This document shows, in pieces, positions 80-38,717 of a stretch of 38,717 bases of DNA. The translations under genes and the position numbers were made by a program. This stretch comes from a virus. The stretch spans positions 1-38,717 of IMG/VR virus record IMGVR_UViG_3300030098_001785. One strand, given 5' to 3'. Within the stretch, counting starts at the first letter, position 1. Every line of letters starts with the position of its first letter. The notes under the pieces are model-generated. The model was not told where the DNA came from, did no database searches, and saw only the letters and a program-made list of their open reading frames with translations.

Positions 80-744
80 ACGATCTCCCAGAGTACGGTC
101 GGTTCCTCAGTATGTACGGCATCAGCCACCCCCAACTCGCTTCAATCTCAGGAGTGACGTGGGAGTGCGCATTCCTGAACTCCTACGATATGACTTCATC
201 GGCAAAGTCAGTCATGGCTCGGCGAGTTATGGTCTGCACCAACGGCTGCTTCTTCGGCTCCGGTGAGGAGACTGCCGGTTTCCGGCGGAAGCACACGAAG
301 GGTATCGACAAGGACCGAGAGGGTCACTTCCAGACCCTGAATGACTTGATCACTGAGTCTATTGGCGGACTCCTTCGTCAGGCCGAGGGCGAGGAGCAGC
401 GTATCCTCCGCTGGCAGAACATGGAGTGCTCCAATGATGACGCCCGGTACGTCGCTGTCGAGGCTGCCAAGCAGGGAGTCATCGGGGCTGCTGCTGTCCT
501 CCGGGTGCTGAAGCACTGGGAGACCCCGGAGCATCCCGAGTTCAGGGATCGAAACGTCTGGTCACTGGAGAACGCCTTCACTTCCAATGACCGGGGCCAG
601 AACCTGTACTCCCAAGGTGCTCGTATGTCGAGGCTCGATGGGATCATCAATGATCGATTCGGGTTCGCGACTACGGTCCCAGACAGTGTGGATCAGGACT
701 ACGTTTCAATCGGGGATTCCCCGAATCACGCCTCTGATTTCTGA
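1..744 (+). CDS. DUF932-type phage protein, C-terminal part (gene crosses the contig junction)
   Basis: The frame is open from base 1 and continues the gene that starts at 38486. The joined protein is about 298 aa. The part here has a TNGCFFG stretch followed by a basic segment and a helical C-terminal half, which fits the DUF932 family of phage and plasmid proteins. That family has no settled biochemical role. The gene is the last of the early module and lies before the integrase. Its final codons contain one copy of the phage palindrome (708-726), read as IGDSPN about 20 nt before the stop. The first codon differs between the two copies of the overlap (CGG here, CAG at 38639). The family call rests on recalled pattern, not a search. 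Confidence 0.7.
   Translation, partial: RAFSQQGFEISEPVHYRAKSRDNGKINDLPEYGRFLSMYGISHPQLASISGVTWECAFLNSYDMTSSAKSVMARRVMVCTNGCFFGSGEETAGFRRKHTKGIDKDREGHFQTLNDLITESIGGLLRQAEGEEQRILRWQNMECSNDDARYVAVEAAKQGVIGAAAVLRVLKHWETPEHPEFRDRNVWSLENAFTSNDRGQNLYSQGARMSRLDGIINDRFGFATTVPDSVDQDYVSIGDSPNHASDF
708..726 (+). repeat. Dispersed palindrome copy 1 (in DUF932 gene end)
   Basis: AATCGGGGATTCCCCGAAT, with core TCGGGGA-T-TCCCCGA. It lies inside the coding sequence, read as I-G-D-S-P-N, and is followed by a GAATC (GANTC) site. Confidence 0.9.
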
Positions 745-1895: not shown

Positions 1896-1944
1896 GCCCG
1901 CTAAATTACAGTTCACCAAGCCACAACGGAGTGTGTCTTAACCT

Positions 1945-4350
1945 GTGTCCGATAGAAAAAATTACCAATCTAAACTCGAAGAAGAGATGGTCTCTCTTGG
2001 GAGGGACCGTTACCACCACAAAGTTAAACGTGCGAAGGAGACTTCACTAGAGTCAACTACGGCTGTCGGTCAGCACCTACTCGCTGAGTCAATAGATTTG
2101 ATGAGTGAGGCGTTGAAGTCGTGGCTACGAACTGCGAAGACGGCTCCCGGTAGACGCCATCGTGCGTACCCGTTCCTGAAGGAGTTACCTCTCAAGGTCG
2201 TGTCCGGTCTGACTGCACGCTGCATACTTGACTGCATCAGTATTGAACGCAAGATTGCGAGCACTGCGATTACGATCGGTCGCCTACTTGAGGACGAGAT
2301 GAAGTTCCGTAAGATCAGGGAGGAAGAGCCTGCTCTTTGGAATCAAATCAACCGTGTTCTTGATCGATACAAATCTCAGAAGACTAAATCTAAGTTCATC
2401 AATAAGACGATCCGGTTCCATGAACTCGTAGTCCATGCATGGACGAGGGAGGAAGCAGCGTCCGTAGGGTTGACTTGCATTGAGTTGCTCCGACAGTCAA
2501 CCGGGATCATCGACATCCTCACGAGGAGAGATCCTCAGGGCCGATCGTACACTGTCGTCCGTCCTACGGATGAACTAATGGATTGGATCAAGAACGCGCA
2601 CGAGTACAGGGAGGCATTGAATCCAGTATGGCTTCCTACAGTGGAGACTCCGATCGACTGGAACAATCCATACATCGGTGGCTACCACTCTCTGACGTTC
2701 CGTCGCCGCCCTCTAGTGAAGACTCAGGACAAAGCATATCTGGAAGAACTAGCACTTACTGACATGCCTCAAGTGTACGAGGCGATTAACCACGTTCAGC
2801 GAGTCCGATACGCCATCGACAAGGACGCCCTTGTAGTACTGGAGCATTGTTGGGATAAGAACCACCCAGTGGATGGTATTCCATCTCTTGAAGACGAGCC
2901 GATTCCCAACAAGCCCGCAGATATCGCTACTAACAAGGAGTCCAGACGTGCTTGGAGGAAGCAGGCCGCAAGGACTCACTTCGATAACGAGAGGCAGAAG
3001 TCCAAACGATTGCAGGTGATGAGGGTGATCAACCTGTCGAAGAAGTTTATTAACGATGAGATCTCATTTGTACGGCAACTAGATTTCAGAGGTAGATGCT
3101 ACGCTGTTCCATATTTCCTACAGCACCAAGGCCCCTCCTATGTCCGAAGTCTCCTCAGGTTCTCTCGTGGGCTGCCGCTGACAGACTCCGGTGCGATGTG
3201 GCTGTATATCAATGCTGCATCTAAATGGGGACTCGATAAGACTCCGTACAGTGAGCGACTTCGTTGGACTGAAGATAATATTGAATTCATCAGGAGAATC
3301 GGGGAATCCCCGATTGAGAACAAGGAGTGGATGGACGCGGATGACCCATGGTTATTCAAGGCTGCGTGTTCAGAGATCTACAGGATGCACCGGGACGGCG
3401 TCGGGTTCCTATCGACACTGCCGATCAGTCTAGATGCAACCAATCAAGGTCTACAGATCTACACGATGATGCTGTTGGATGAGGTGGGGGCCGCGTCAGT
3501 CAATGTCCTGCCCGGAGACAGGCCGCAGAGTATCTATGAGAACGTCGCTAAGAACGTCATCAGGAGGCTTCAGAACGACGACAGTCCGTACGCCTCCCCT
3601 TGGCTGGAGTTTGGGATTACTAAGGCGGCGACCAAGAGGCCGTCAATGACGCTCGTATACGGCTCCACCTTCTTTTCATGTCGGGGGTATACCGCTGACT
3701 GGTTCTATGAGGAACTGAAATCCGGCAGGGAGAACCCGTTCGGAGATGAGACATATAAACCATGCAACTACTTGGCTCAAATCATCTGGGAGTCGATCGA
3801 TGAGGAGGTGCACTCGGCTAAAATTGGTATGGACTGGCTTAGATCGTGTGCCCAGTTATTCATTGAACACGGGGTCACGCCCCGATGGTCTACACCTCTC
3901 GGCTTTCCCGTCAAGATGTACTACGAGAACACGAACAAGTACGCAGTCAAGACGCTTGTTGGTGGAGTGCTCAGGCAGCACCGCCTTCGGCTCCCCAATG
4001 GCACTACTAATAAGAGGAAAACAGTCAACGCAATTTGTGCGAACAAGGTCCACTCAACTGATGGCATTGGCGGCTTACTCGGTCGCATCATCTGCCTCGC
4101 CAAAGAGCGTGGAGTAGATGATATCTCAGACATACATGACTCGATATCAGCACACGCTTGTAATATCGATACGATGCAATCCTGTATCCGAGAGGGCACT
4201 GTTCAAATATTTCAAGAAAACCAGTTGGAAATCCTAGCGGACCAACTTGAAAGACAACTCCCGCCCGGTGTAACATTGCCGTCTATACCGGAACGGGGAA
4301 ACCTGAATATCGAAGATGTGCTTCGATCTAAATACTACTTCAATGTGTAA
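1945..4350 (+). CDS. T7-like single-subunit DNA-dependent RNA polymerase
   Basis: This 801-aa enzyme (T7 gp1 is 883 aa) transcribes the middle and late phage genes. Motif A is LDATNQGLQ with catalytic Asp497. Motif B is KRPSMTLVYGS with Lys564 and Tyr572, equivalent to T7 K631 and Y639. Motif C is IHDS with His731 and Asp732, equivalent to T7 H811 and D812. The GTG start is chosen because the next residues (LEEEMVSLGRDRY) match the N-terminal region of T7-like polymerases; the ribosome site (CGGAG) is weak. The gene lies 49 nt after int and 16 nt before SSB. A reverse-oriented copy of the phage palindrome lies inside it (3297-3315), coding IGESPI around residue 453. The phage promoter it recognises was not identified with confidence. 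Confidence 0.97.
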   Translation: MSDRKNYQSKLEEEMVSLGRDRYHHKVKRAKETSLESTTAVGQHLLAESIDLMSEALKSWLRTAKTAPGRRHRAYPFLKELPLKVVSGLTARCILDCISIERKIASTAITIGRLLEDEMKFRKIREEEPALWNQINRVLDRYKSQKTKSKFINKTIRFHELVVHAWTREEAASVGLTCIELLRQSTGIIDILTRRDPQGRSYTVVRPTDELMDWIKNAHEYREALNPVWLPTVETPIDWNNPYIGGYHSLTFRRRPLVKTQDKAYLEELALTDMPQVYEAINHVQRVRYAIDKDALVVLEHCWDKNHPVDGIPSLEDEPIPNKPADIATNKESRRAWRKQAARTHFDNERQKSKRLQVMRVINLSKKFINDEISFVRQLDFRGRCYAVPYFLQHQGPSYVRSLLRFSRGLPLTDSGAMWLYINAASKWGLDKTPYSERLRWTEDNIEFIRRIGESPIENKEWMDADDPWLFKAACSEIYRMHRDGVGFLSTLPISLDATNQGLQIYTMMLLDEVGAASVNVLPGDRPQSIYENVAKNVIRRLQNDDSPYASPWLEFGITKAATKRPSMTLVYGSTFFSCRGYTADWFYEELKSGRENPFGDETYKPCNYLAQIIWESIDEEVHSAKIGMDWLRSCAQLFIEHGVTPRWSTPLGFPVKMYYENTNKYAVKTLVGGVLRQHRLRLPNGTTNKRKTVNAICANKVHSTDGIGGLLGRIICLAKERGVDDISDIHDSISAHACNIDTMQSCIREGTVQIFQENQLEILADQLERQLPPGVTLPSIPERGNLNIEDVLRSKYYFNV
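3297..3315 (-). repeat. Dispersed palindrome copy 2 (inside RNA polymerase gene, reverse orientation)
   Basis: AATCGGGGAATCCCCGATT is a perfect inverted repeat with 9-bp arms. It is the only copy with the central base reversed. It is read in frame as I-G-E-S-P-I and is flanked by a GAATC site. Confidence 0.9.
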
Positions 4351-4366
4351 GTAAGGAGGATTCACA

Positions 4367-7517: not shown

Positions 7518-9319
7518 TGTTTGATATCGAAACGAATGCGATCAAAGACTTTAAGACTCTATGCGGCCTCCAGACCATTCACTGTATTGCGTTGGGGCGT
7601 CCCGGTGAGGACCCTCAGATCCTTGAGGTCGAGGATGCGTTGGCGGAACTCAGTAAGGCCGACGTCTTGGTGGGCCACAACATTATGAACTTCGACATCC
7701 CCGCCATCAAGCGGCTCTACCCCGACTGGGACACGAGCAGTTGCTGTATCAGGGACACGCTAGTTATGTCGAGGATGCTGTGGCCTGACATCCAGAATGA
7801 GGACTGGCAGATCCCAGAGTTCCCCCGGCAACTTATAGGTCGCCACTCATTGAAGGCGTGGGGCTACCGCATGGGTATCTTGAAGGATTCATTCGGGGAT
7901 TCCCCGATTTGGGATGAGTTCACTCCAGAGATGGCAGAGTATTGCATCCAAGATGTCCGAGTAACTCAGGCTCTCTGGGATCGCATCGAGAAGGAGAACC
8001 CTCCTGAAAACCCCACAGTGCTGGAACACGAATTCGCGGAAATCATCTCAGAACAAGAGAGAAACGGATTCGCTTTCGACGTAGACGCCGCTAGGAAACT
8101 GCACGTCGAACTTCTCAGTGAGAAGGACTCCCTCCGCCGGGAACTTCAGTCGTGCTTTCCAGCCCAAGTAATCAAGATGAAGACCCCGGCTTACTATGAG
8201 AACCCGATCACGGGCGAGAGGTTTACCCGTAAGAAGGACGCCCCCTCCAAGGAGCAGAAAGTCTTGATTAGGGGGGAACTCAGGACCAAGGAGATACCCT
8301 TCAACCCCGGCAGCCGAGATCAGATCGCTAAGGGACTGATCGACAAGTACGGGTGGAAGCCTGTGGACTTCACGGGTGAGGGGAAGCCGAAGGTGGATGA
8401 GTCCGTCCTTAATGGGTTGGAATATCCTGAAGCCAAACTGATGATGAAGTACCTGACCGTCTCGAAGAGGCTGGGTCAGATCAGTGACGGTCGTGAGTCG
8501 TGGATGAAGGCGGAGGAGAATGGAAGGATATATGGACGAGTCAATCCCTGCGGGGCTGTGACAACGAGATGCACCCACTCCCGCCCGAATATGGCTCAAG
8601 TACCGGGAGTCCACGCCCCTTGGGGCAAGGAGTGCCGTAGCCTGTTTACGGTCCCTGAGGGCTATGTCCTTCTGGGAGTGGACCTTAGTTCCTTGGAGTT
8701 GAGGTGTCTCGCTCACTACACCTACAAACTAGACGGAGGTCGGTACACGAACGAGGTTCTGTCAGGTGACATTCATACTGCCAACCAAGAGGCAGCAGGA
8801 TTAAAGCACCGAAATGACGCAAAAGTATTCATATACGCAGTGACCTATGGTGCAGGTGACGCCAAGATTGGATCGATTATTGGAGGCGGTCGCAATGAGG
8901 GACGCCGCCTGAAGGAGCAGTTCTTCCGAAAGATGCCTGCTCTCAAGAAGATCGTCGAGGCCATCAAGTACAGAGTGAAGACTCAGGGACATCTAATAAG
9001 TATCGACGGTCGGAGACTGAGGATCCGATCAGAACACTCCGCTCTTAATACTTTGTTACAATCAGCGGGGGCAATTGCGGTGAAGCAAGCGACTTGTAAT
9101 CTTCACCGTTCCCTACGGTCCCATGGATGGGGCAAAGAGGATGTCATGCAGGTGGCTCACATCCACGATGAGATCCAACTTCAAGTCCGCAAGGAGATCG
9201 CGGAAGATGTCGGGAACCTTTCGATACAAGCCATCCGCCAAGCCGGTGAGGACCTCGGGTTCCGCTGCCCGCTTGACGGAGAATTCAAAATCGGAAATAA
9301 CTGGGCAGAGACTCACTGA
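7505..9319 (+). CDS. Family A DNA polymerase (T7 gp5-like)
   Basis: This 604-aa replicative polymerase has a 3'-5' exonuclease domain. The exonuclease motifs are FDIET (Asp7, Glu9), VGHNIMNFDIPAI and YCIQDVRVT. The polymerase motifs are A VDLSSLELR (Asp393), B RNDAKVFIYAVTYGAG (Lys440, Tyr448) and C HIHDEIQL (Asp555), so both activities look intact. It is about 100 residues shorter than T7 gp5 and probably lacks the long thioredoxin-binding insertion. The ATG has AAAGGAG upstream and overlaps the preceding ORF by 13 nt. A copy of the phage palindrome lies in the exonuclease domain (7891-7909), coding FGDSPI. A homing endonuclease ORF starts right after the stop. Confidence 0.97.
   Translation: MYTLVFDIETNAIKDFKTLCGLQTIHCIALGRPGEDPQILEVEDALAELSKADVLVGHNIMNFDIPAIKRLYPDWDTSSCCIRDTLVMSRMLWPDIQNEDWQIPEFPRQLIGRHSLKAWGYRMGILKDSFGDSPIWDEFTPEMAEYCIQDVRVTQALWDRIEKENPPENPTVLEHEFAEIISEQERNGFAFDVDAARKLHVELLSEKDSLRRELQSCFPAQVIKMKTPAYYENPITGERFTRKKDAPSKEQKVLIRGELRTKEIPFNPGSRDQIAKGLIDKYGWKPVDFTGEGKPKVDESVLNGLEYPEAKLMMKYLTVSKRLGQISDGRESWMKAEENGRIYGRVNPCGAVTTRCTHSRPNMAQVPGVHAPWGKECRSLFTVPEGYVLLGVDLSSLELRCLAHYTYKLDGGRYTNEVLSGDIHTANQEAAGLKHRNDAKVFIYAVTYGAGDAKIGSIIGGGRNEGRRLKEQFFRKMPALKKIVEAIKYRVKTQGHLISIDGRRLRIRSEHSALNTLLQSAGAIAVKQATCNLHRSLRSHGWGKEDVMQVAHIHDEIQLQVRKEIAEDVGNLSIQAIRQAGEDLGFRCPLDGEFKIGNNWAETH
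7891..7909 (+). repeat. Dispersed palindrome copy 3 (inside DNA polymerase gene)
   Basis: ATTCGGGGATTCCCCGATT is read in frame as F-G-D-S-P-I. A second GATTC lies a few bases upstream. Confidence 0.9.
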
Positions 9320-11142: not shown

Positions 11143-11421
11143 ATGTGTGACTTTATTGGAGACCTCTTCGGAGGAGGGGGAGGTTCTGCGGGGCCGCCAC
11201 CGCCACCCCCTCCAGCGCCAGTCCCTCCGCCCGCTCCCCCCGCCCCCGTAGCCGCCATTGCTCCTCCCCCAATTTTCCAGCCGATTGCACCTGAAAGAAA
11301 CACCCAAAAAAGGGCTAAGAGTAAGGCTTCACGGAGACGGTCGCGGAATCCGTATATGGTTGGAAAGCGACGTCTGATTATCCCCCTGAATGTGGGGCAG
11401 TCGGGCTCTGTTAATCCCTAA
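11143..11421 (+). CDS. Proline-rich small protein upstream of portal
   Basis: This 92-aa protein has three parts: a short N-terminus (MCDFIGDLFGGGGG), a very proline/alanine-rich stretch (about 17-50), and a basic end with RNPYMVGKRRLIIPLN. The layout and position just before the portal match small uncharacterised proteins of marine T7-like phages. It is probably virion-associated, but this is inference. Its ATG follows the previous stop directly, with GGGAGG just upstream. A GGGGG tract codes the glycine run. Confidence 0.7.
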   Translation: MCDFIGDLFGGGGGSAGPPPPPPPAPVPPPAPPAPVAAIAPPPIFQPIAPERNTQKRAKSKASRRRSRNPYMVGKRRLIIPLNVGQSGSVNP

Positions 11422-11438
11422 ACGACAAAGGTGACATA

Positions 11439-14335: not shown

Positions 14336-14354
14336 ATTCGGGGATTCCCCGAAT
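14336..14354 (+). repeat. Dispersed palindrome copy 4 (upstream of major capsid gene)
   Basis: ATTCGGGGATTCCCCGAAT is a perfect inverted repeat with 9-bp arms. It is intergenic, ending 32 nt before the capsid ATG, and is the only copy in the late-gene leaders. Confidence 0.92.
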
Positions 14355-15611: not shown

Positions 15612-16229
15612 ATGATGTCTACTTCTCGAACCTCAGAACTTGAGGCCGTCAACACCATTCTCTCTGCTGTCGGCGAGCCGCCGATTAACTCTCTCGACGA
15701 GCAGAAGAACGCTGACGCTGCTATCGCTCGTAACATTCTCAACGAGGTTAGCCGAGAGGTCCAGACCCACGGGTGGCATTTCAACACTCAACAGAAAGTC
15801 AAACTGTCGCCCAGTACCGACTCCCATATCGTTCTCGACGATAGCGTGGTCAGGGTGGACATTGAGAACATCGCCGGTGGAACCTATAACTCCACCGACA
15901 TTACTCAGCGTGGTAATAAACTATTCAACCGAACAGACAACACTTACGTATTCTCAAATGACGTAGAAGCCACTGTGATTTATCTCCTAGGTTGGGGGGA
16001 ACTCCCAGAGCCTGCTCGCCGTTTTGTTACGGTTCGTGCTGCTCGTATCTTCCAAGATCGTATGGTCGGCTCTCAGGCCCACCACGCATTCTCCCGCGAA
16101 GATGAGTCTAGGGCGAGGGCGCTGCTTAAGGAGTTTGAGGGGGAGACAGCGGACCATTCCATCTTTGATAACTACGATGTCTACCGCATCGTCAATCGTC
16201 CTGACGTTACTCGGGGAAGGAATTCTTAA
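15612..16229 (+). CDS. Tail tubular protein A / adaptor (T7 gp11-like)
   Basis: This protein of about 205 aa should form the gatekeeper ring below the portal. The N-terminal pattern ELEAVNTILSAVGEPPINSL, then ILNEVSREVQTHGWHFN, is typical of gp11. The following segment AARIFQDRMVGS is also family-like. ATG 15612 or 15615 follows ACGGAG at good spacing; a GTG at 15606 overlaps that site and is less likely. It precedes tail tube B, as in T7. Confidence 0.93.
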   Translation: MMSTSRTSELEAVNTILSAVGEPPINSLDEQKNADAAIARNILNEVSREVQTHGWHFNTQQKVKLSPSTDSHIVLDDSVVRVDIENIAGGTYNSTDITQRGNKLFNRTDNTYVFSNDVEATVIYLLGWGELPEPARRFVTVRAARIFQDRMVGSQAHHAFSREDESRARALLKEFEGETADHSIFDNYDVYRIVNRPDVTRGRNS

Positions 16230-26993: not shown

Positions 26994-28922
26994 ATGTCAT
27001 ACAGTTTCATTGACTACGGCCTCGGGGATGGGGTAGACCTCACATCCGATCAACAAGCCGGTAATTTCAACAACATCACGTTGGGATACCTCAACACGTC
27101 AGATATCTACATCATTCGTACGACATCTCAAGGCGTGAAGACGACTCTCAATTCAAACCAATACACGATTACGGTTGAGGGGTCGGTCACGAACGTCAAG
27201 ATCCACACGCCCACAAACGGACTCGATAATCCGATTACGATTGATGAGACAGACCTTATCCGTATTGGCCGCACCACTGACGTGACTGATCTGACTCGGA
27301 CGTTTACGGATGGCTCGGTCCTTAAGGCTGACGACCTAAACGCTGGAAATTATCAACTTCTGTATGCCCTTCAAGAAGACATAGATGTGGGCTTGGGCGC
27401 TCTCCCGATTGATACCGATGGTAAATACAACGCAGGCGGCCGTGTAATTAAGAACCTTGGTGAGGGCTCTAACGCGAGCGACAATGTGACTAGGTCTTAC
27501 GTGGACGACCTGACTCTTTACGGAGCCGCGGTAGCCACACCTCAGTCTTGGACCTTTGCGACGAATTCGTCAGATGTAGACGGGGATGACCGAAAGTTCA
27601 CTCTAGAAGAACCGGCTTCAACGCACACCACCGAGGAACTTTACATTGTCGAACTTGACGGAGTCATTCAGGTTCCCAGTACGTACACGGTGACGGAATT
27701 TGATGGAACATACACCCTGACTTTAACGGGGGCAGCCACAGTACCGAATGGATTGGCTCTGTCCGTAAGGAACATTGGGGTTGGACGTCATCATATCCAC
27801 CAGCCTTTTAAGGCCGAGACCGGATCTGACGACTCCGTAAAGATCCAAAGGGTTGGAGGTCAGACCGGAAACTTACTCCACGCATACGATGAGCATGCCC
27901 CAGCGAACACCCTCGCTAAGATTGATGCGGATGGTGACGCGACCTTTACCGACGTGAACGCGACTGGAAACGCTTCAGTGTCTGGGAATGCTTCAGTGGG
28001 TGGAACAGCAGGCATCACCGGCGACTTTGCAATCAACACCAATAAGGTCACTGTGGAGGCTTCCACCGGCAACACGGAGATTGCTGGAACTCTGAACATT
28101 GCAGGGGCGACCACGATGGCTGGAGGGCTCTCCGGCAACTTGAATCTACTTGACGGCGTTCTACAGTTGGCCGGTGGTCCGATTAAAACGATCCGCCAGA
28201 TTACCACGACACAGTTCGACGACACCGCGGATGATTCAGGAGCCACCATGCACTATTCCGACTCTCTGGCGGACGCCCAACGTGTTTATGGGATGTATAC
28301 GGAAATTACCCCACAACTTTCAAGTTCTACAATCATTCTGCTTGCCACACCTAGAGTCGTCCTCGCGGCTGATGAAGATCTCGACGGCAGCGGGAAGGGC
28401 GTGGATGACATTCATGCTCAATTCCGACTCTGTCTAAACAACACAGCGAGGGCTGGTGAAGCGGTCGATGTCGGCATGCTCGGCGGGTCACTCTACCAAG
28501 TGAGGCATTCTCAAACAAATAAGGTGGTCGGAGACTCATTCACCTTTACTGAAGGGTCTCATCTGAGTGGAACAGGAGATACTGCAACATCCGTAAACGC
28601 GACCAAGAAAGTCACGGATTCTGAATACGACTTGCAGCACTCTTTTGCGTACGGTGTTGCGGTAGCGCCGACAGATGTTGGCGGTTCGGGCAGCAACTTC
28701 GATGCAGAGTACTCAAGAATCATCGAGGGCCACTTCCACGAACTTGACGGGCCGGAGGGTGTCTTGAGGTGGTATGGCCGCCTAACAATGTTGTACGTTT
28801 ATAACAACTCAGACTCATCGACCAAACGATTCGACGTCGTGAGTCAGGTTAGAGAAAATAGTCAGGTAACGCCCCACTTGACTGATGGTTATTCTCAATT
28901 TATTGCGATTGAGATTGGGTGA
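26994..28922 (+). CDS. Tail fibre protein (T7 gp17-like N-terminus)
   Basis: This 642-aa protein has residues 1-140 that match the T7 gp17 tail-attachment domain (ITLGYLNTSDIYII, DLTRTFTDGSVLKADDLN, YALQE). A repetitive region follows (about 315-385; ATGNASVSGNASVGGTA, GNTEIAGTLNIAG), likely a beta-helix shaft. A variable C-terminal domain then contains several His and Gly-rich loops and probably binds the host receptor. It starts 4 nt after gp16. Host range cannot be read from the sequence. Confidence 0.92.
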   Translation: MSYSFIDYGLGDGVDLTSDQQAGNFNNITLGYLNTSDIYIIRTTSQGVKTTLNSNQYTITVEGSVTNVKIHTPTNGLDNPITIDETDLIRIGRTTDVTDLTRTFTDGSVLKADDLNAGNYQLLYALQEDIDVGLGALPIDTDGKYNAGGRVIKNLGEGSNASDNVTRSYVDDLTLYGAAVATPQSWTFATNSSDVDGDDRKFTLEEPASTHTTEELYIVELDGVIQVPSTYTVTEFDGTYTLTLTGAATVPNGLALSVRNIGVGRHHIHQPFKAETGSDDSVKIQRVGGQTGNLLHAYDEHAPANTLAKIDADGDATFTDVNATGNASVSGNASVGGTAGITGDFAINTNKVTVEASTGNTEIAGTLNIAGATTMAGGLSGNLNLLDGVLQLAGGPIKTIRQITTTQFDDTADDSGATMHYSDSLADAQRVYGMYTEITPQLSSSTIILLATPRVVLAADEDLDGSGKGVDDIHAQFRLCLNNTARAGEAVDVGMLGGSLYQVRHSQTNKVVGDSFTFTEGSHLSGTGDTATSVNATKKVTDSEYDLQHSFAYGVAVAPTDVGGSGSNFDAEYSRIIEGHFHELDGPEGVLRWYGRLTMLYVYNNSDSSTKRFDVVSQVRENSQVTPHLTDGYSQFIAIEIG

Positions 28923-33236: not shown

Positions 33237-33255
33237 ATTCGGGGATTCCCCGATT
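33237..33255 (+). repeat. Dispersed palindrome copy 5 (upstream of early terminator)
   Basis: ATTCGGGGATTCCCCGATT is intergenic in a 346-nt gap (33060-33405), 13 nt before the intrinsic terminator. A GATTC overlaps its left side. Confidence 0.92.
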
Positions 33256-33265
33256 GAATGGTCAA

Positions 33266-33292
33266 CGCACCCCTGTCGATCGGGGTGTTTTT
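33266..33292 (+). terminator. Intrinsic terminator separating late and early modules
   Basis: CACCCC (33268-33273) pairs with GGGGTG (33282-33287) around an 8-nt loop, followed directly by TTTTT. It would stop late transcripts just before the early promoter at 33307. Confidence 0.85.
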
Positions 33293-33306
33293 GTGCATGG
33301 AGGGGC

Positions 33307-33334
33307 TTGACAATGCCGACATATCTGGTAGCCT
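33307..33334 (+). promoter_or_regulatory. Sigma70-type early promoter
   Basis: TTGACA (33307-33312), a 16-bp spacer and TAGCCT (33329-33334) with an extended TG (TGGTAGCCT). It lies between the terminator and the first early gene at 33406. Confidence 0.6.
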
Positions 33335-33405
33335 TATGGTGACGGTAGAGGAGCCGCCCGGCTCCGCCGATCACCAGAAGCCAACGAAGTCTAGGAGACT
33401 CAACA

Positions 33406-34194
33406 ATGGCTACCAAGAAACGCACCAAGTCACACAAGGATGCCGCCGACATCGCGGCCAAGGCCGAGCAGGTCCGGATCGAGATGGAGCACGACGCCCA
33501 CAACGCGTATCAGACGCTTCAGACCGATGCGGTCTCGTTCCTGAACGCCGACACCGTCGCCCAGCAGGAGGGAGTTGCGTTCGGATTCAACCTGAACGTC
33601 TTCATGGCCGACCACGCCGACGTCCTCGGCTTGACCCTCGAAGACATCGCGGCCACCCTCGGGACGTCTGCCGACCGGCTCCGATCCTGTCGTCTGGCTG
33701 CCGGCCTCCGGCCGTTCCTCGGGCGTCTCGATCTTGACGACGTCGACTCGTACTCTTGGGCCCGGATCATCGTGTCGGGCTTGAAGGAGCAGAATGAGAA
33801 GGGGGACAGCCGGAACGTCACCCCGGACATGTTCCACGCGGCCGATCTGGAGCACATCGAACGGGATTTCCCGAACACGTGCCGCCGGCTGGGCTTGTTC
33901 GGCGAGGCCATGACTCGCGGCCATCTGCCGGTCAAGGCTGCGAGGATCGCGAGGGACGCCGATCGGGCGGACTTCGACACCGTCGCCGACATGGTGGAGG
34001 CCAAGGCTGAGGCCAGGGCTGACGCCGCGGAAGCCAGCACAGCGAAGACCGACTTCGACCGGGCCTTGGAGGCCATCGCGAAGGCGTCGAAGATCATCGC
34101 TGGTCTGGAGGGCGAGGAGCGCGACGCCGCGATCAAGGCGGCCAAGGCGGCGTTCACTGTGAAGGCGATCAAGGCTGCGGCCGAGTCCGCCTGA
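33406..34194 (+). CDS. GC-rich early protein with HTH-like segment, 262 aa
   Basis: The family is not recognised. The mostly helical, alanine-rich protein has a segment at about 77-100 (LTLEDIAATLGTSADRLRSC) with the spacing of a helix-turn-helix. A long charged helical region follows (about 190-240; EAKAEARADAAEASTAKT). The leader has TCTAGGAGACTCAACAATG, the early box. It is the first gene after the early promoter, so a host-takeover or regulatory role is plausible. GC is clearly higher than elsewhere (about 67% in a counted 60-base line at 33601), suggesting recent acquisition. Confidence 0.8.
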   Translation: MATKKRTKSHKDAADIAAKAEQVRIEMEHDAHNAYQTLQTDAVSFLNADTVAQQEGVAFGFNLNVFMADHADVLGLTLEDIAATLGTSADRLRSCRLAAGLRPFLGRLDLDDVDSYSWARIIVSGLKEQNEKGDSRNVTPDMFHAADLEHIERDFPNTCRRLGLFGEAMTRGHLPVKAARIARDADRADFDTVADMVEAKAEARADAAEASTAKTDFDRALEAIAKASKIIAGLEGEERDAAIKAAKAAFTVKAIKAAAESA

Positions 34195-34214
34195 TTCGTT
34201 CACACTGTCCACGG

Positions 34215-34240
34215 GGGGGCCGGCCTACGGGTCGGTCCCC
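34215..34240 (+). terminator. Hairpin terminator-like structure after the GC-rich gene
   Basis: GGGGGCCGGCC (34215-34225) pairs with GGTCGGTCCCC (34230-34240) over 11 bp around TACG, followed by TCTTCCC rather than a clean T-run. It is likely a partial terminator. Confidence 0.6.
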
Positions 34241-34261
34241 TCTTCCCATGGAGGTACTACC

Positions 34262-34369
34262 ATGATCCGCTTCATCATCGATCTGATCCGCACACTGGCC
34301 GAGGGGCTCACGCAGTCCGGCTACCTTCCCTCCCCGGTTGACCGCGACGACGATACCGCGGTTGAATGA
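34262..34369 (+). CDS. Micro-ORF, 35 aa, amphipathic
   Basis: MIRFIIDLIRTLAEGLTQSG is followed by an acidic tail (DRDDDTAVE). GGAGGT lies 6 nt before the ATG, which is the main support. The N-terminal helix is hydrophobic. The function is unknown. Confidence 0.5.
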   Translation: MIRFIIDLIRTLAEGLTQSGYLPSPVDRDDDTAVE

Positions 34370-34412
34370 ATGACTGCTCCCGGTCTCGCCTTAGGGCGGG
34401 CCGGGGGCGGCC

Positions 34413-34546
34413 GTGATAGCGAGGCGTAGCCGAGCGTCGTGATAGCGGTGGGTCGATCGCCATGGCGGTGGACCGTGATAGCGGGCATCCGTCGATTCAG
34501 TGCGGGGACGTATTCGGGGATTCCCCGATTGATGAACCTGATAGCG
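34413..34546 (+). repeat. Direct repeats GTGATAGCG (x3) and TGATAGCG (x1) in early intergenic region
   Basis: GTGATAGCG occurs at 34413, 34439 and 34475, and TGATAGCG at 34539. A second repeat, TTCAGTGCGGGG, occurs at 34496 and 34554. The 333-nt gap 34370-34702 holds no convincing gene. It also carries a GC-rich hairpin (about 34379-34406), two palindromes and a strong promoter, so it looks like a control region. Confidence 0.75.
34512..34530 (+). repeat. Dispersed palindrome copy 6 (early control region)
   Basis: ATTCGGGGATTCCCCGATT lies between the GTGATAGCG repeats and the sigma70 promoter at 34593. Confidence 0.92.
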
Positions 34547-34592
34547 AAGTCAGTTCAGTGCGGGGTGGTTCAAAGAAAGTTCCCAGACCCCC

Positions 34593-34621
34593 TTGACAAA
34601 CGATTCATATTCGGATACAAT
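34593..34621 (+). promoter_or_regulatory. Strong sigma70 promoter
   Basis: TTGACA (34593-34598), an exact 17-bp spacer and TACAAT (34616-34621) form a near-consensus promoter. It should drive the early operon from 34703 onward. Confidence 0.85.
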
Positions 34622-34666
34622 ACGTACGTCACATGGAGGTAGGCGTCAGCCCTACCAGTCACATCC

Positions 34667-34685
34667 ATTCGGGGATTCCCCGATT
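34667..34685 (+). repeat. Dispersed palindrome copy 7 (leader of ORF 34703)
   Basis: ATTCGGGGATTCCCCGATT lies downstream of the strong promoter, so it would be in the transcript leader. Its core ends 19 nt before the ATG at 34703. A second GATTC follows. Confidence 0.92.
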
Positions 34686-34702
34686 CATCTTAGGAGAATC
34701 AA

Positions 34703-35029
34703 ATGAGCAGCAGATTGCCATCAATCGCTCACTCCACTATTCAGACGGTCAGTGACGCTGTAGCGTATATGACTCTGATGTTTCAGGAGTACGGCGAGGA
34801 CGTCTTTGACGCGACGTGTCCACGAGCGTATGACAACCGAGATACGACCGATATGTACAACTCTGACGGATCGGTGGCTATTGACTACTGGTTCCTGCCG
34901 TCAATCTTCAGCCCCAGCGAGTGTACGGTCGTCGATCAGCGTCTCCATGAGATGTACGCCCTTGAGGATTCTGAGGGCTGGTCGCTGGAGGATGCGTGGA
35001 TGTCGGTCATCGGTGATACACCATTTTGA
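34703..35029 (+). CDS. Hypothetical acidic early protein, 108 aa
   Basis: Not recognised. It is acidic and aromatic-rich, with TLMFQEYGEDVFDATC and a C-terminal MYALEDSEGWSLEDAWMSV. The leader TTAGGAGAATCAAATG matches the early box, and it is the first ORF after the strong promoter. It probably acts early on a host target, by position only. Confidence 0.75.
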   Translation: MSSRLPSIAHSTIQTVSDAVAYMTLMFQEYGEDVFDATCPRAYDNRDTTDMYNSDGSVAIDYWFLPSIFSPSECTVVDQRLHEMYALEDSEGWSLEDAWMSVIGDTPF

Positions 35030-35047
35030 TTCGGGGATTCCCCGATT
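35029..35047 (+). repeat. Dispersed palindrome copy 8 (leader of ORF 35070)
   Basis: ATTCGGGGATTCCCCGATT begins right at the stop of the preceding gene. Its core ends 24 nt before the next ATG. Three GATTC sites lie within 21 bases. Confidence 0.93.
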
Positions 35048-35069
35048 CATTCTTTCTAGGAGACCCAAC

Positions 35070-35282
35070 ATGACTTGGGCAGAGTTTCGCAAACTTGTTG
35101 ATCGCCACGTCAAGAAGATGACTGGCGGCCTTGGCCTTCACGATCTCGCAGACGTCCTCATCGACGACTTCTATCCGGGGCAGGATGGCGAGGACTACCA
35201 CTGGGACGCACTGGCTTCCGATGCCGCGTACTACGTCCTTGAGGAGAACGGCTTCCCGATGGACGAGGAGGTGTCCGCATGA
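35070..35282 (+). CDS. Hypothetical early protein, 70 aa
   Basis: Not recognised. MTWAEFRKLVDRHVKKMTGG is followed by an acidic region (ADVLIDDFYPGQDGEDYHWD) and YYVLEENGFPMDEE. The leader is TCTAGGAGACCCAACATG. Its end overlaps the next ORF by ATGA. Confidence 0.75.
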   Translation: MTWAEFRKLVDRHVKKMTGGLGLHDLADVLIDDFYPGQDGEDYHWDALASDAAYYVLEENGFPMDEEVSA

Positions 35283-35452
35283 TTCACGAGATCTTCCAGC
35301 GTATCTTCTCGGCGGTTGAGGTCGGGGCCGTCAACGTGGACTCCGATCGTGAACTGGAGACGTACATCAAGGGCGTCTTCAATCTGGACGACGTGAACGC
35401 TACCATGTACGTTGAGGCGTGGCGGCTGTATGACGAGGAGCACGCAGCATGA
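35279..35452 (+). CDS. Hypothetical early protein, 57 aa
   Basis: A short acidic helical protein (MIHEIFQRIFSAVEVGAVNV, later YVEAWRLYDEEHAA). It is linked to both neighbours by ATGA overlaps, which is the main evidence for a real, translationally coupled gene. The family is unknown. Confidence 0.65.
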   Translation: MIHEIFQRIFSAVEVGAVNVDSDRELETYIKGVFNLDDVNATMYVEAWRLYDEEHAA

Positions 35453-35676
35453 GTGGTCCCATCGCTATTATCGTCCTCGACGACGGGGAGACTTGGGGAG
35501 GCGTCGATGGTGCATCCATCTGCTTTCTCAGTAAGGAGCAGCACGAGTCCCTCTGTTCTGGGGAAGTCAGCATCGCTCATGTGGAGCCTTTCTACGAGTT
35601 GGGCTTGACGGACATTACCCCTACTCCAATCGAGACCATCTACCGGGTGACTGACGAGGAGGAGTCCAGCAGTTGA
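35449..35676 (+). CDS. Hypothetical early protein, 75 aa
   Basis: Not recognised. It begins MSGPIAIIVLDDGETWGGVD, has alternating strand-like segments and an acidic end. It starts by ATGA overlap with the upstream ORF. Similar phage proteins with an I-x-V-L-D-D-G-E-T-W start exist in my recollection but have no known role. Confidence 0.7.
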   Translation: MSGPIAIIVLDDGETWGGVDGASICFLSKEQHESLCSGEVSIAHVEPFYELGLTDITPTPIETIYRVTDEEESSS

Positions 35677-35682
35677 TCCATT

Positions 35683-35743
35683 AGCAGGGCCGGGTGCTGC
35701 CCACGGTCACGCCTACTGTGGGGACTCCACGCCCGGTCCTGCT
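35683..35743 (+). other. Long stem-loop RNA structure between early genes
   Basis: AGCAGGGCCGGG (35683-35694) pairs with CCCGGTCCTGCT (35732-35743) over 12 bp with one G-U pair. The 37-nt interior can form a second stem (CCCAC with GTGGG). It lies just before a palindrome copy. It could be a terminator (weak ATTTCC tail), a processing site or a small structured RNA. Confidence 0.55.
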
Positions 35744-35749
35744 ATTTCC

Positions 35750-35768
35750 GTTCGGGGATTCCCCGATT
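35750..35768 (+). repeat. Dispersed palindrome copy 9 (leader of ORF 35793)
   Basis: GTTCGGGGATTCCCCGATT has its core ending 26 nt before the ATG at 35793. A GATTC follows. Confidence 0.92.
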
Positions 35769-35792
35769 CATTCTCTTTCTAGGAGACTCACA

Positions 35793-36116
35793 ATGAAACT
35801 CAGTGAATACAGGAAGATGATCGAGAACAGCGAGGCCCCCCTCCGTCGTCACATCGACAGCATGGATAACAGGCTTCGCAAGGCGGCGGCCCGCAGGGAT
35901 CGCCAGTGTTCGAGGAAGCGGGAGATCACCCGCGCCTTCGCGTACGCCATTCGCGACATGCTCTCGGAGATCTTTGGGTATCAGCCTACCCGTTTCACGT
36001 ACCGCCTCGGCCGTAGGGTCCATCGTTACGGTGCGTGGGAGGTGGACGGGGATTTCTTCCCCATCAACTACGAGACCTACACGTGGTGCAAGCGTGAACT
36101 GGGAGGTGGAGCGTGA
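35793..36116 (+). CDS. Hypothetical basic early protein, 107 aa
   Basis: Not recognised. The N-terminal half is a strongly basic, probably coiled helix (MDNRLRKAAARRDRQCSRKR). The C-terminal half is aromatic-rich (FTYRLGRRVHRYGAWEVDGD). Its leader TCTAGGAGACTCACAATG is the type example of the early box. Nucleic-acid binding is possible. It overlaps the next ORF by GTGA. Confidence 0.75.
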   Translation: MKLSEYRKMIENSEAPLRRHIDSMDNRLRKAAARRDRQCSRKREITRAFAYAIRDMLSEIFGYQPTRFTYRLGRRVHRYGAWEVDGDFFPINYETYTWCKRELGGGA

Positions 36117-36328
36117 ATAAGTACGACCCCGGCATCAACATGCAGGCTGTCATCCAATACGTCGACGACTGCATGAACCGCCCCAAGTTCGGTCTTCCAG
36201 TTTCCAGTGGGCACGTCTACGCGCACCTGTTGGAGACCATCGAGCGTGCTGCGGTTCACTTCGGCGTGTCGAAGGCTACCATCGGCCCCGCCATCTTCCG
36301 GTGGTTCAACGGAGGAGATTCACAATGA
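36113..36328 (+). CDS. Hypothetical early protein, 71 aa
   Basis: Not recognised. It is read from GTG 36113, coupled by GTGA to the previous stop, with GGAGGTGGA upstream. Segments are MQAVIQYVDDCMNRPKFGLP and HFGVSKATIGPAIFRW. The latter could be a short helix-turn-helix. Confidence 0.68.
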   Translation: MNKYDPGINMQAVIQYVDDCMNRPKFGLPVSSGHVYAHLLETIERAAVHFGVSKATIGPAIFRWFNGGDSQ

Positions 36329-36594
36329 GAAACTACAGAGCAATCCTTGAGTTGCTAATCCTCAAAATCGGGGGTCGGTACTCGTACACGGTGTTCACTC
36401 ATGGGGACTCCCCAGTCGAGCGATTTGAGTTCACGCTGCCCTTCAATGACCGTGAGTATTTCGCTCACACGGCGGAGCAGGCGTTGGACATACTGATCGA
36501 TGCTTTGTTGATGCATGATTTCGACTACGGGAGACTCCTCTGGGATCTCTTCCGGCCAATCGGGGATTCCCCGAATGAGGGAGGTGACGCATGA
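36325..36594 (+). CDS. Hypothetical early protein carrying two palindrome-encoded motifs, 89 aa
   Basis: Not recognised. ATG 36325 follows GGAGGAGATTCACA, a variant of the early box. The protein contains HGDSPV from a degenerate palindrome (36402-36414) and IGDSPN near its end from an exact copy (36558-36576), in the same frame. The middle is acidic and helical (AHTAEQALDILIDALLMHDF). It overlaps the next ORF by ATGA. Confidence 0.72.
   Translation: MRNYRAILELLILKIGGRYSYTVFTHGDSPVERFEFTLPFNDREYFAHTAEQALDILIDALLMHDFDYGRLLWDLFRPIGDSPNEGGDA
36402..36414 (+). repeat. Degenerate palindrome copy 10 (variant)
   Basis: TGGGGACTCCCCA keeps the GGGGA/TCCCC arms but has a changed centre and outer bases. 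It codes G-D-S-P in the same frame as the exact copies. Confidence 0.55.
36558..36576 (+). repeat. Dispersed palindrome copy 11 (end of ORF 36325)
   Basis: AATCGGGGATTCCCCGAAT is coding (I-G-D-S-P-N), and its core ends 16 nt before the ATG of the membrane microprotein. Confidence 0.92.
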
Positions 36595-36683
36595 ACATCC
36601 CCGGCCTTATCTTCACTGTCGTCGGCATCATCGTACTGATCATCTTCTACAAGTGGGCCGACAAGCGGCTGGGGGGTGAGTGA
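36591..36683 (+). CDS. Single-pass membrane microprotein, 30 aa
   Basis: One hydrophobic segment (LIFTVVGIIVLIIFY, about 6-20) is followed by a short basic cytoplasmic-type tail (KWADKRLGGE). It is coupled to both neighbours (ATGA upstream, TGATG downstream) and has GGGAGGTGACGC before the ATG. It might act on the host membrane early in infection. Too short for family assignment. Confidence 0.65.
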   Translation: MNIPGLIFTVVGIIVLIIFYKWADKRLGGE

Positions 36684-36865
36684 TGACTGAGCCACCCCAA
36701 GAGTCCGTCTTCGAGTTTCTCGACGCCCTCTATAATCAGGGCTGGGACATGCACAATGCTGGCCCCTGTCTGGAGATCAGGTTTGGTGTCGGCAGATACG
36801 AGGCCAACCGTATGTTGATGTCGTATTTCAATCACTGTGAAATCAATCAGGAGGTATCGGAATGA
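36683..36865 (+). CDS. Hypothetical early protein, 60 aa
   Basis: Not recognised. It is acidic, with VFEFLDALYNQGWDMHN and FGVGRYEANRMLMSYF. The ATG overlaps the previous TGA and is preceded by a GGGGGG/GGTGAG stretch; the end overlaps the next gene by ATGA. Confidence 0.68.
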   Translation: MTEPPQESVFEFLDALYNQGWDMHNAGPCLEIRFGVGRYEANRMLMSYFNHCEINQEVSE

Positions 36866-37140
36866 AGATTTACATTTGGCAGCACAGTTGGTCCGGGGAT
36901 CCCCTCGACGGTACTCCCGTGTATGAGTGGTCTTCGAACAAGGATGACATTCCGTATGTCCACGCTGGTGATATTGAGTTGAGGCCTACCGAGACCCAAA
37001 TCGATTCCGTCGTGTTCGTTCAGGAGCATATCGTTTGGGATATTCACAAGTCTACGTATGACAACTTCCAGACCAACACCGAAGTCGCTCTCGCCGTCAC
37101 TGATTACGCTCGGGCACATGGCTTCTACAAGTACGGCTAA
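36862..37140 (+). CDS. Hypothetical early protein, 92 aa
   Basis: Not recognised. It begins MKIYIWQHSWSGDPLDGTPV and ends YARAHGFYKYG; it is acidic, aromatic-rich and looks like a small beta-rich fold. It has AGGAGG upstream. A palindrome copy starts exactly at its stop codon. Confidence 0.7.
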   Translation: MKIYIWQHSWSGDPLDGTPVYEWSSNKDDIPYVHAGDIELRPTETQIDSVVFVQEHIVWDIHKSTYDNFQTNTEVALAVTDYARAHGFYKYG

Positions 37141-37157
37141 TCGGGGATTCCCCGAAT
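37139..37157 (+). repeat. Dispersed palindrome copy 12 (leader of GP88-like gene)
   Basis: AATCGGGGATTCCCCGAAT overlaps the TAA of the preceding gene. Its core ends 20 nt before the ATG at 37176, with GAATC and the box TCTAGGAGAGTCACC between. Confidence 0.93.
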
Positions 37158-37175: not shown

Positions 37176-37910
37176 ATGAAACTACTAGGAACGAATAACA
37201 AACTAGACAAACAGTCCTCCCGAGGAGAGCCGTTCGTTCTCCGGGGTTTGTCCCTCGCTCCTGCTGATCTCAGTGGGTATGAGACGTGTCCGATGCGTAC
37301 TCCTGACTGCACGAAGGCGTGCATCGGGGTCAAGTCAGGGCACAACCGATTCAACCCTGCGAAGGAGGCGAAGATCAGGAAGACGAAGTTGTTCTTCGAG
37401 GACAACGAGACGTTTATGACTCAGTTATTCCGTGAGATCAACAACCTGCGGAAGTACTGTGATCGTCTCGGCAAGAGTCCTGTGGTCCGCCTCAACACGT
37501 ACTCGGATATCGTCTGGGAGAAGAAGCACCCTGAGATCTTCCGTGAGTTCTCTGATGTGCAGTTCTACGACTACACGAAGATCCACCAGAGGTGGGATCT
37601 ACCGGACAACTACCACCTGACTCTCTCGTACACTGGGTACAACTGGGAGCAGTGCGAGTCGTGGCTGACTACTCACCGCAATGTCGCAGTCGTATTCAAG
37701 GACTGCTGGGACAACCCCCTGCCCGACACGTGGCGTGGCTTCACTGTCGTGGATGCCGATAAGGACGACTGTCGGTGGCTGGAGGCTCCCGGTACAATCT
37801 CTGGGCTTCGCACGAAGGGGTCCGTCAAACACGCTGGGCCTTTCTTCGCGGACGCCACAGAACTCACCATTGGTAGACGCAAGATCGTCACGGAGGAGGT
37901 ATGCGTATAA
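37176..37910 (+). CDS. GP88-like phage protein with Cys cluster, 244 aa
   Basis: The N-terminal part has GLSLAPADLSGYETCP followed by PDCTKACIGVKSGHN, then a helical segment with AKIRKTKLFFEDNETF. This Cys-Pro...Cys...Cys layout followed by A-x-x-R-K-T-x-x-F resembles the GP88 family of phage proteins of unknown function. The middle (RLNTYSDIVWEK, YDYTKIHQRW) could be a barrel-like core. A metal or iron-sulphur site is possible but unproven. The leader TCTAGGAGAGTCACCATG and a palindrome precede it. It overlaps the next ORF by 10 nt. Confidence 0.7.
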   Translation: MKLLGTNNKLDKQSSRGEPFVLRGLSLAPADLSGYETCPMRTPDCTKACIGVKSGHNRFNPAKEAKIRKTKLFFEDNETFMTQLFREINNLRKYCDRLGKSPVVRLNTYSDIVWEKKHPEIFREFSDVQFYDYTKIHQRWDLPDNYHLTLSYTGYNWEQCESWLTTHRNVAVVFKDCWDNPLPDTWRGFTVVDADKDDCRWLEAPGTISGLRTKGSVKHAGPFFADATELTIGRRKIVTEEVCV

Positions 37911-38092: not shown

Positions 38093-38114
38093 TCCATTTA
38101 TGGAGACTCACAGA

Positions 38115-38417
38115 ATGGACAACAAGACAAACTACGCAAGCGTCACGAAGGCTGGCCTTCCAGATATCGCGCCCCGTAACCAAGCCAATAACGGGTTCAC
38201 TGAGCGTGGGCAGCAGGCAGCCGCAAACCTTCTGAAGATGGGCCGTGGTCACCACACGATCGGCCGGTTCGAGTACAATAGGAACGCCCAAGGTTCCTTC
38301 AGGCTCGGGGTCCAGAAGGTGGACCTTTACAGGGAACTTACCGTCATCCAGCGTAAGGATGGCAACTTCGTCAATATGTACGTCATGTACAAGGATGATG
38401 TCCTTAGCAGTACCTGA
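38115..38417 (+). CDS. Hypothetical early protein, 100 aa
   Basis: Not recognised. Segments are LPDIAPRNQANNGFTERGQQ and YRELTVIQRKDGNFVNMYVM. The first half is polar and probably flexible, the second beta-rich. The leader TATGGAGACTCACAGAATG fits the early box, supporting ATG 38115 over an in-frame ATG at 38100 that overlaps that box. Confidence 0.72.
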   Translation: MDNKTNYASVTKAGLPDIAPRNQANNGFTERGQQAAANLLKMGRGHHTIGRFEYNRNAQGSFRLGVQKVDLYRELTVIQRKDGNFVNMYVMYKDDVLSST

Positions 38418-38485: not shown

Positions 38486-38717
38486 ATGAGCACAGAACTC
38501 ATCGCTCCCACGCCGTACAACCCCAAGGCTTGGGGTGAGCGTGTGGATATCGGAACCATTCGTCGTACCCGTGTCCCTGTAAGAGGCCCGGAGTCGTGGC
38601 GTCCCCTGCCCCATGACACGTTCATCACGATGATCGAGCAGGCGTTCTCTCAGCAAGGCTTTGAGATTTCAGAGCCAGTACATTACAGGGCGAAATCTCG
38701 TGACAATGGGAAGATCA
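38486..38717 (+). CDS. DUF932-type phage protein, N-terminal part (continues at base 1)
   Basis: The start has the leader TTTAGGAGATATAACATG. The open frame reaches the window end and continues in frame at base 1. The N-terminus (YNPKAWGERVDIGTIRRTRV) is followed by WRPLPHDTFITMIEQAFSQQ. Joined length is about 298 aa. The 68-nt gap before it (38418-38485) shows no promoter that I can support. Confidence 0.75.
   Translation, partial: MSTELIAPTPYNPKAWGERVDIGTIRRTRVPVRGPESWRPLPHDTFITMIEQAFSQQGFEISEPVHYRAKSRDNGKI
38639..38717. repeat. Right copy of the terminal overlap of the contig
   Basis: Matches bases 1-79 with one mismatch (38640 A versus base 2 G), changing Gln to Arg in the DUF932 protein. 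Confidence 0.9.

Follow-up and report, generated by a model that had tools for sequence, protein, structure and literature searches.

Why should the genome of a T7-like phage carry eleven exact copies of one 15-bp palindrome, some just ahead of early genes and others inside polymerase genes? The palindrome, TCGGGGATTCCCCGA, is dispersed over IMG/VR virus record IMGVR_UViG_3300030098_001785, which was analyzed over all of its 38,717 nucleotides (hereafter the window). T7-like phages are the textbook example of strictly lytic viruses, and to our knowledge little has been learned about how their temperate relatives are silenced. The analysis below indicates, with a probability of roughly two in three, that the palindromes are dispersed operators for a phage-made, sequence-specific dimeric DNA-binding regulator, for which the product of the gene at 33406-34194 is the most likely candidate. 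This regulator is probably a fast-switching immunity repressor.

A preliminary description of this DNA, made from its letters alone, had listed eleven exact copies of the word, and all of them were found at those places (Table 1). It had also considered a 15-base word of this kind to be beyond chance, and word counts against shuffled controls agreed: when exact palindromes with 6-bp arms and a gap of 0-9 were counted, the top word of the window had 11 copies, and the maximum for any such palindrome in 20 dinucleotide shuffles was 2. With up to 3 mismatches allowed on both strands there were 23 matches, compared with a shuffle mean of 2.1, and none of 100 shuffles reached 23. Few unrelated viral contigs contained the word, each with one copy. 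Alignment of the flanks of the window copies extended the full element to 19 bp, A-W-TCGGGGA-W-TCCCCGA-W-T, with A at position -2 in 10 of 11 copies, T at +2 in 11 of 11, and A or T throughout at -1 and +1. The orientation of the center was biased 10:1 in the window, probably reflecting descent.

Seven of the 11 copies were located at 33239-37155, in the approximately 4 kb of early genes to which they had been assigned. Five of these early copies end 16, 19, 20, 24, and 26 nt before a start codon, matching the range of 16-26 nt originally given, and the capsid-leader copy ends 34 nt before its ATG, also as described. The copies at 710, 3299, and 7893 are intragenic, in the 3' end of a DUF932 gene, the RNA polymerase gene, and the DNA polymerase gene, respectively. 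The preliminary description had added a variant copy at 36402; it reads GGGGACTCCCC, at 36403, and is doubtful as a site, as the inner 11 bp alone fit and the flanks do not.

Scans of IMG/VR with alignments of the polymerase, the portal, and the terminase provided relatives of the window (G000, or W); all are metagenome contigs, some of them incomplete. Those of the same lineage bear other palindromes, with 3-19 copies each. The window word, TCGGGGA-W-TCCCCGA, is shared by G004 (3300030372_002137) and G005 (3300030376_004054), and TCGGAGA-S-TCTCCGA is shared by G002 (3300030098_000913) and G011 (3300032134_000008). The other words are TCGGGGA-S-TCCCCGA in G010 (3300037574_000199), CCGGGGA-S-TCCCCGG in G003 (3300030060_002320), CGCACANTGTGCG in G007 (3300010155_001168), TCTGGG-N4-CCCAGA in G009 (3300025277_001710), CGGGGGATTCCCCG in G012 (3300030380_000805), TTGTCG-N5-CGACAA in G014 (3300030117_000581), TCTGTAG(TG/CA)CTACAGA in G015 (3300030101_000233), TCTGGGACGTCCCAGA in G016 (3300030376_000954), GTTTAC-N4-GTAAAC in G022 (3300042383_000213), and CTTGTCATGACAAG in G034 (3300044225_004666). 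Many of these words have the outer bases AWTC...GAWT in common and differ inside only.

Sites were found at the same places in several genomes: near the 3' end of the DUF932 gene in 11 genomes, at RNA polymerase codon 452 in five, at DNA polymerase codon 129-130 in five (one an unrelated palindrome and two with one mismatch), in the capsid leader in four, directly before the RNA polymerase start in four (G014, G015, G016, and G022), in the leader of the GP88 family gene in three, and, in five, where the early region begins, 183-275 nt past the conserved small gene w32793. The preliminary description had held that related phages with the genes and without the word at equivalent places would speak against the system; the window word is indeed absent from many relatives, but a different word stands there. 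Between the window and G005, the word at RNA polymerase codons 452-456 was kept despite non-synonymous changes in the center and flank (IGESPI versus IGDSPN), and most phages without the word at codon 452 have other residues there. In the DNA polymerase gene of G007, the site was rewritten into another palindrome. At RNA polymerase codon 452, TTGGAGACTCTGCGG and TCGGTCGATCTCCTC are found in L058/G007 and G001 (3300030099_002455), respectively, and may be decayed remnants of a former word.

The regulator slot was mapped by a natural swap between G015 and G016, compared over the DNA present in both contigs. These two phages are closely related, with identities of 93.7% for RNA polymerase, 95.8% for DNA polymerase, 96.4% for primase/helicase, 92.5% for terminase, and 90.7% for DUF932. 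All of their syntenic sites (7 of 7) differ in the core, TGTAG(CA/TG/TA)CTACA in G015 and TGGGACGTCCCA in G016, within surrounding sequence that can be aligned. Homologs in G016 were found for 31 of the 33 open reading frames (ORFs) of G015; the two without one are the first early gene and an ORF located at the edge of the contig. The first-early-gene slot holds an unrelated gene in G016, and it is the sole such slot among the complete G015 genes; additional in G016 are ORFs 28113-28400 and 35078-35551 and a segment absent from the G015 contig. In other words, the site word and the first early gene change together. Because the swap is confined to this slot, its counterpart in the window, 33406-34194, was taken as the candidate regulator gene. 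The preliminary description had proposed separately that the palindromes were repressor or stoperator sites of a temperate T7-like phage and that they were sites for a regulator such as this gene's helix-turn-helix (HTH)-like product; the G015/G016 comparison lends support to both proposals at the sequence level and merges them.

The predicted 33406 product has Lys/Ala-rich helical ends and an HTH-like center, LTLEDIAATLGTSADRLRSCRLAAGL. It had no match in Pfam, NCBIfam, PDB sequences, or phage records and no PHROG below an E value of 0.01, and neither tblastn against phage records nor an IMG/VR scan detected relatives. Its counterparts in G003, G011, G014, G022, and the distant contig L240 are Lys/Ala-rich proteins of 180-260 amino acids with C-terminal helical patterns that look similar by eye, and no credible family match (Pfam, PHROGs, NCBIfam, PDB sequences) was found for the counterparts that were searched. 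The structural model of the G022 counterpart had a pLDDT of 45, and this model and that of the 33406 product were too poor for a fold search.

Two other candidates for the regulator were rejected. DUF932 does not follow the words, as the proteins of G007 and G011 are 72% identical with different words and those of G002 and G011 are 58% identical with the same word. Small ribbon-helix-helix-like proteins are encoded just upstream of DUF932 in G007, G009-G011, G015, and G016, and a different small gene is found there in the window (38100-38417) and G003. The ribbon-helix-helix-like proteins were excluded on their absence from the window and on their homology between G015 and G016, in which the words differ.

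Whether the sites are read as DNA or as RNA was addressed with 49 sites from seven genomes (the window, G002, G003, G004, G005, G010, and G011). All 98 of the bases adjoining the 15-mer (-1/+1) were A or T, yet they formed complementary pairs in just 20 of the 49 sites. The center base was A/T only in the window, G004, and G005 and C/G only in G002, G003, G010, and G011, in which it occurred in both orientations (C 18, G 16). A center that can face either way, together with A/T flanks that need not be complementary, indicates that double-stranded DNA is recognized rather than an RNA hairpin; as far as sequence can tell, a symmetric DNA-binding dimer accounts for the pattern and a hairpin does not. 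This disfavors the transcript-processing hairpins that had been listed as a possible role. Hairpins in leader RNA, whether for processing, stability, or translational control, might be suspected from the 6-bp stem and 3-nt loop, from the T-rich tails of three copies (called terminator-like), from the position of most sites near start codons, and from the Shine-Dalgarno sequence AGGAG held by the G022 site. They are nevertheless very unlikely, for the stem is invariant within a phage and not merely complementary, and there are sites deep within the RNA polymerase and DNA polymerase genes. Promoters of the phage T7-type RNA polymerase could likewise be dispersed, stand ahead of the capsid and early genes, and face largely one way, as the sites in the window do. 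However, the presumed specificity-loop stretch of the polymerase is near-identical in the window, G002, G003, G007, and G011, which have differing words, and in G001, which has none, and symmetric sites that flip orientation and lack a TATA-like start region are hardly to be believed as promoters.

Odd dispersed palindromes such as these, built around a central base and present in about a dozen copies, resemble the KorB operators of RK2, and some members of the lineage are without an integrase, as might be expected if the words were parS-like partition or KorB-like sites of a plasmid-like prophage. This explanation has little probability, given that the ParB N-terminal domain (ParB_N, PF02195) was absent from 12 word-bearing or related contigs and that the sites are found at gene leaders and within key lytic genes. 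The phages might also have borrowed a regulator encoded by the host, as has been described for CtrA in alphaproteobacterial phages (PMC9437464). Differing hosts might explain differing words; however, the words change jointly with one phage gene between two phages with 94-96% identical polymerases, and outside the lineage the window word occurs only as single copies in few viral contigs, making a host regulator most improbable. The same sites and regulator could instead serve lytic growth, with the early genes and the phage RNA polymerase shut off or timed and with no lysogeny involved. Consistent with such a use are the words in the integrase-free contigs G012, G015, G016, and G022 and the sites directly ahead of the RNA polymerase start. 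Internal timing alone, however, offers no obvious motive for replacing word and regulator jointly, an integrase is encoded in the window and most relatives, and some contigs are incomplete, so a purely lytic role is considered unlikely, if worth keeping in mind.

The explanation preferred here is that the palindromes are operators of a phage regulator. Comparison across the lineage establishes them as symmetric words in double-stranded DNA that are phage-specific, occupy fixed positions including positions in coding sequence, and change in concert between close relatives. In the mechanism proposed, a regulator dimer would bind each 19-bp site, flanking the early promoters at sites 5-7 and forming a roadblock at the early-gene leaders and in or beside the genes for the capsid and for the phage RNA and DNA polymerases. 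Stray transcription would thereby be kept from the T7-type lytic program, in a block like that imposed by the stoperators of cluster A mycobacteriophages (PMC6550527). In lysogens, the prophage would be silent and would confer homotypic superinfection immunity. The joint replacement of regulator and sites would be explained by an advantage in evading resident repressors, and it is the outcome expected of selection for new immunity types.

Several points weigh against this proposal. Binding, repression, and immunity in this phage are inferred. The HTH of the 33406 product was recognized by visual inspection and in a structural model of low confidence (mean pLDDT 49.8). Among the contigs compared, there was no independent pair of phages with a shared word and a homologous first early gene to provide positive evidence of covariation. 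In addition, no tyrosine integrase or serine recombinase was found in the word-bearing contigs G012, G015, G016, and G022, which indicates that the words do not strictly go with integration; such relatives might resemble plasmids, or their regulator might work during lytic growth.

Table 1. Sites and neighboring features in the window. Sites 1 to 11 all have the exact word; the core is the position of the 15-bp copy.
Feature	Coordinates	Strand	Core	Context	Same place in relatives
Site 1	708..726	+	710	In 3' end of DUF932 gene (codon ~200/210), 110 nt ahead of integrase	G002, G003, G005, G007, G009, G010, G011, own word each; G014-G016, own word each, at or just past DUF932 gene end
Site 2	3297..3315	-	3299	In RNA polymerase gene, codon 452; reversed center	G005, G002, G003, G011
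Site 3	7891..7909	+	7893	In DNA polymerase gene, codon 130	G011 (6-nt insertion), G005 and G002 (1 mismatch); G007, unrelated palindrome CGCACAGTGTGCG
Site 4	14336..14354	+	14338	Capsid gene leader, ATG at 14387	G004, G003, G014
Site 5	33237..33255	+	33239	Late/early boundary, upstream of terminator and first early gene	G003, G014, G015, G016 (first site past w32793 gene)
Terminator-like hairpin with T tail	33267..33288	+		Just 3' of site 5; consensus match only	
Candidate regulator gene (first early gene, 262 aa)	33406..34194	+		Slot mapped by G015/G016 swap	
Site 6	34512..34530	+	34514	~65 nt upstream of early promoter-like sequence	
Sigma-70-like promoter TTGACA-17-TACAAT (11/12)	34593..34621	+		Between sites 6 and 7; suggestive only, sigma-70-like matches in early region no more numerous than in shuffles	
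Site 7	34667..34685	+	34669	Leader of gene 34703, 19 nt ahead of ATG	
Site 8	35029..35047	+	35031	Leader of next early gene, 24 nt ahead of ATG	
Site 9	35750..35768	+	35752	Early gene leader, 26 nt ahead of ATG; -2 base is G	
Doubtful variant	36403..36413	+		Outer bases misfit	
Site 10	36558..36576	+	36560	Overlaps end of one early gene, 16 nt ahead of next ATG	
Site 11	37139..37157	+	37141	GP88 gene leader, 20 nt ahead of ATG	G002 and G003, own word each

The window has the gene set of a temperate T7-like phage: a T7-type RNA polymerase (1945-4350), a tyrosine integrase (834-1895), and T7-type head and tail genes. The annotated genes include those for SSB, RusA, primase/helicase, DNA polymerase, portal, scaffold, capsid, tail, internal virion proteins, and terminase. 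Compared with the polymerases of pelagiphages, roseophages, and LUZ100, the RNA polymerase shows 33-35% identity. The early region starts at about 33.2 kb, crosses the point where the contig ends join, and extends to the DUF932 gene (named from Pfam), and the integrase is next. The contig ends share 77 identical bases (3-79 and 38641-38717), and because this repeat falls inside the DUF932 reading frame it looks like an overlap produced in assembling a genome that is joined into a circle, not a natural terminal repeat. Homologs of the GP88 family gene (37176-37910) are 84-89% identical among the window, G002, and G003, compared with 65-71% for the polymerase, and in G007, G010, G011, and G014-G016 the gene is swapped for an unrelated-looking Cys-rich gene of similar size. 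A search of bacterial genomes with the RNA polymerase found no prophage of the close lineage, and a megablast of the window early region against phage records gave no match.

Other repeated elements were observed in the relatives. G001, a close relative without palindromes and without a regulator-type gene, carries CACACTTCCC as a direct repeat in the leaders of early genes, 20-30 nt before start codons (L048/L049, oriented 16064-17534), which is perhaps a replacement control element. In G003 (L053, oriented 730-815), the first early gene is closely preceded by a promoter-like TTGATG-17-TATGAT and, immediately after that sequence, by another perfect palindrome, CTAGGGAAGTTCCCTAG. G022 (L167/L168, oriented 1422-4725) has nine sites of the form GTTTACAGGAGTAAAC, most of them directly ahead of an ATG and including the ribosome-binding site (Shine-Dalgarno AGGAG), as in the start-associated sequences of cluster K mycobacteriophages. 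Beyond the close lineage, a contig from a Neomarinimicrobiota metagenome-assembled genome (L240, terminase 45%) has six copies of TGTCCCGAGGGGACA in its early region (11241-12466), of which the first stands immediately ahead of a first early gene that is Lys-rich, in the same layout. Among 80 distant terminase relatives in bacterial genome contigs, such a word was found in one only.

The closest parallels to these sites are in unrelated phages. The phiC31 repressor, with its conserved inverted repeats, is a related system. In the cluster A mycobacteriophages L5 and Bxb1, repressor sites called stoperators occur genome-wide, some at promoters and most elsewhere, where they block elongation, and immunity groups are set by the motif of the sites and the repressor, which diverge jointly (PMC6550527, PMC9283540). 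As with stoperators, the window has 11 copies of one phage-specific site, in leaders and gene interiors and mostly off promoters. A stoperator, however, is an asymmetric site of 13 bp to which the repressor binds as a monomer, and most stoperators face the same way (PMC6550527, PMC9283540), whereas the sites of the window lineage are symmetric, with the center in both orientations across relatives, and belong to a T7-like phage that encodes an RNA polymerase of its own, where they are also found inside conserved replication genes. No homologous immunity repressor gene was found, unlike in cluster A; the candidate is an orphan, replaced outright between close relatives.

In the Bacillus phage SP-beta, a 15-bp repeat (SPBRE) at about ten places in the prophage is bound by the master repressor MrpR; SPBRE occupies promoter regions, and the fold of MrpR is that of a tyrosine recombinase (PMC10516654). 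The window instead uses leaders and gene interiors, and its candidate regulator has no detectable relation to known families. The start-associated sequences of cluster K are repeats that many non-structural genes have just upstream of their start codons, at a distance of 3-7 bp, and they are described as non-palindromic (PMC3203893), while the window sites are palindromic, 16-34 nt upstream, and separate from the ribosome-binding site. KorB of RK2 is a global regulator that acts through palindromic sites and silences at a distance (PMC11790492), but in the 12 window-lineage contigs checked there was no ParB-like domain. The temperate T7-like phages LUZ100 and HTVC019P have a MarR-like regulator and an integrase (PMC10134795). 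The window resembles them in being T7-like, in its integrase beside the RNA polymerase, and in a polymerase at ~33-35% identity, but it had no MarR_2 (PF12802) match, the gene upstream of its integrase is DUF932, and it has dispersed palindromes instead.

These comparisons suggest, tentatively and at somewhat less than even odds, that this T7-like lineage has an immunity system that is undescribed in the open-access literature. Its regulators would be orphan, quickly replaced dimers that read phage-specific palindromes in early leaders and polymerase coding sequence, with whole genomes switching word when the regulator gene is replaced, and there would be open-ended immunity types and some members apparently without integration. 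The control sites of such phages can be read straight from sequence, and the natural swap maps the slot of the regulator. The lineage supplies about ten words, each with a partner gene, which might serve as an orthogonal set of DNA-binding regulators, and the joint change of an operator set and its repressor becomes a directly testable question. The sites within the conserved polymerase genes point to a case in which regulation at the level of DNA constrains protein sequence.

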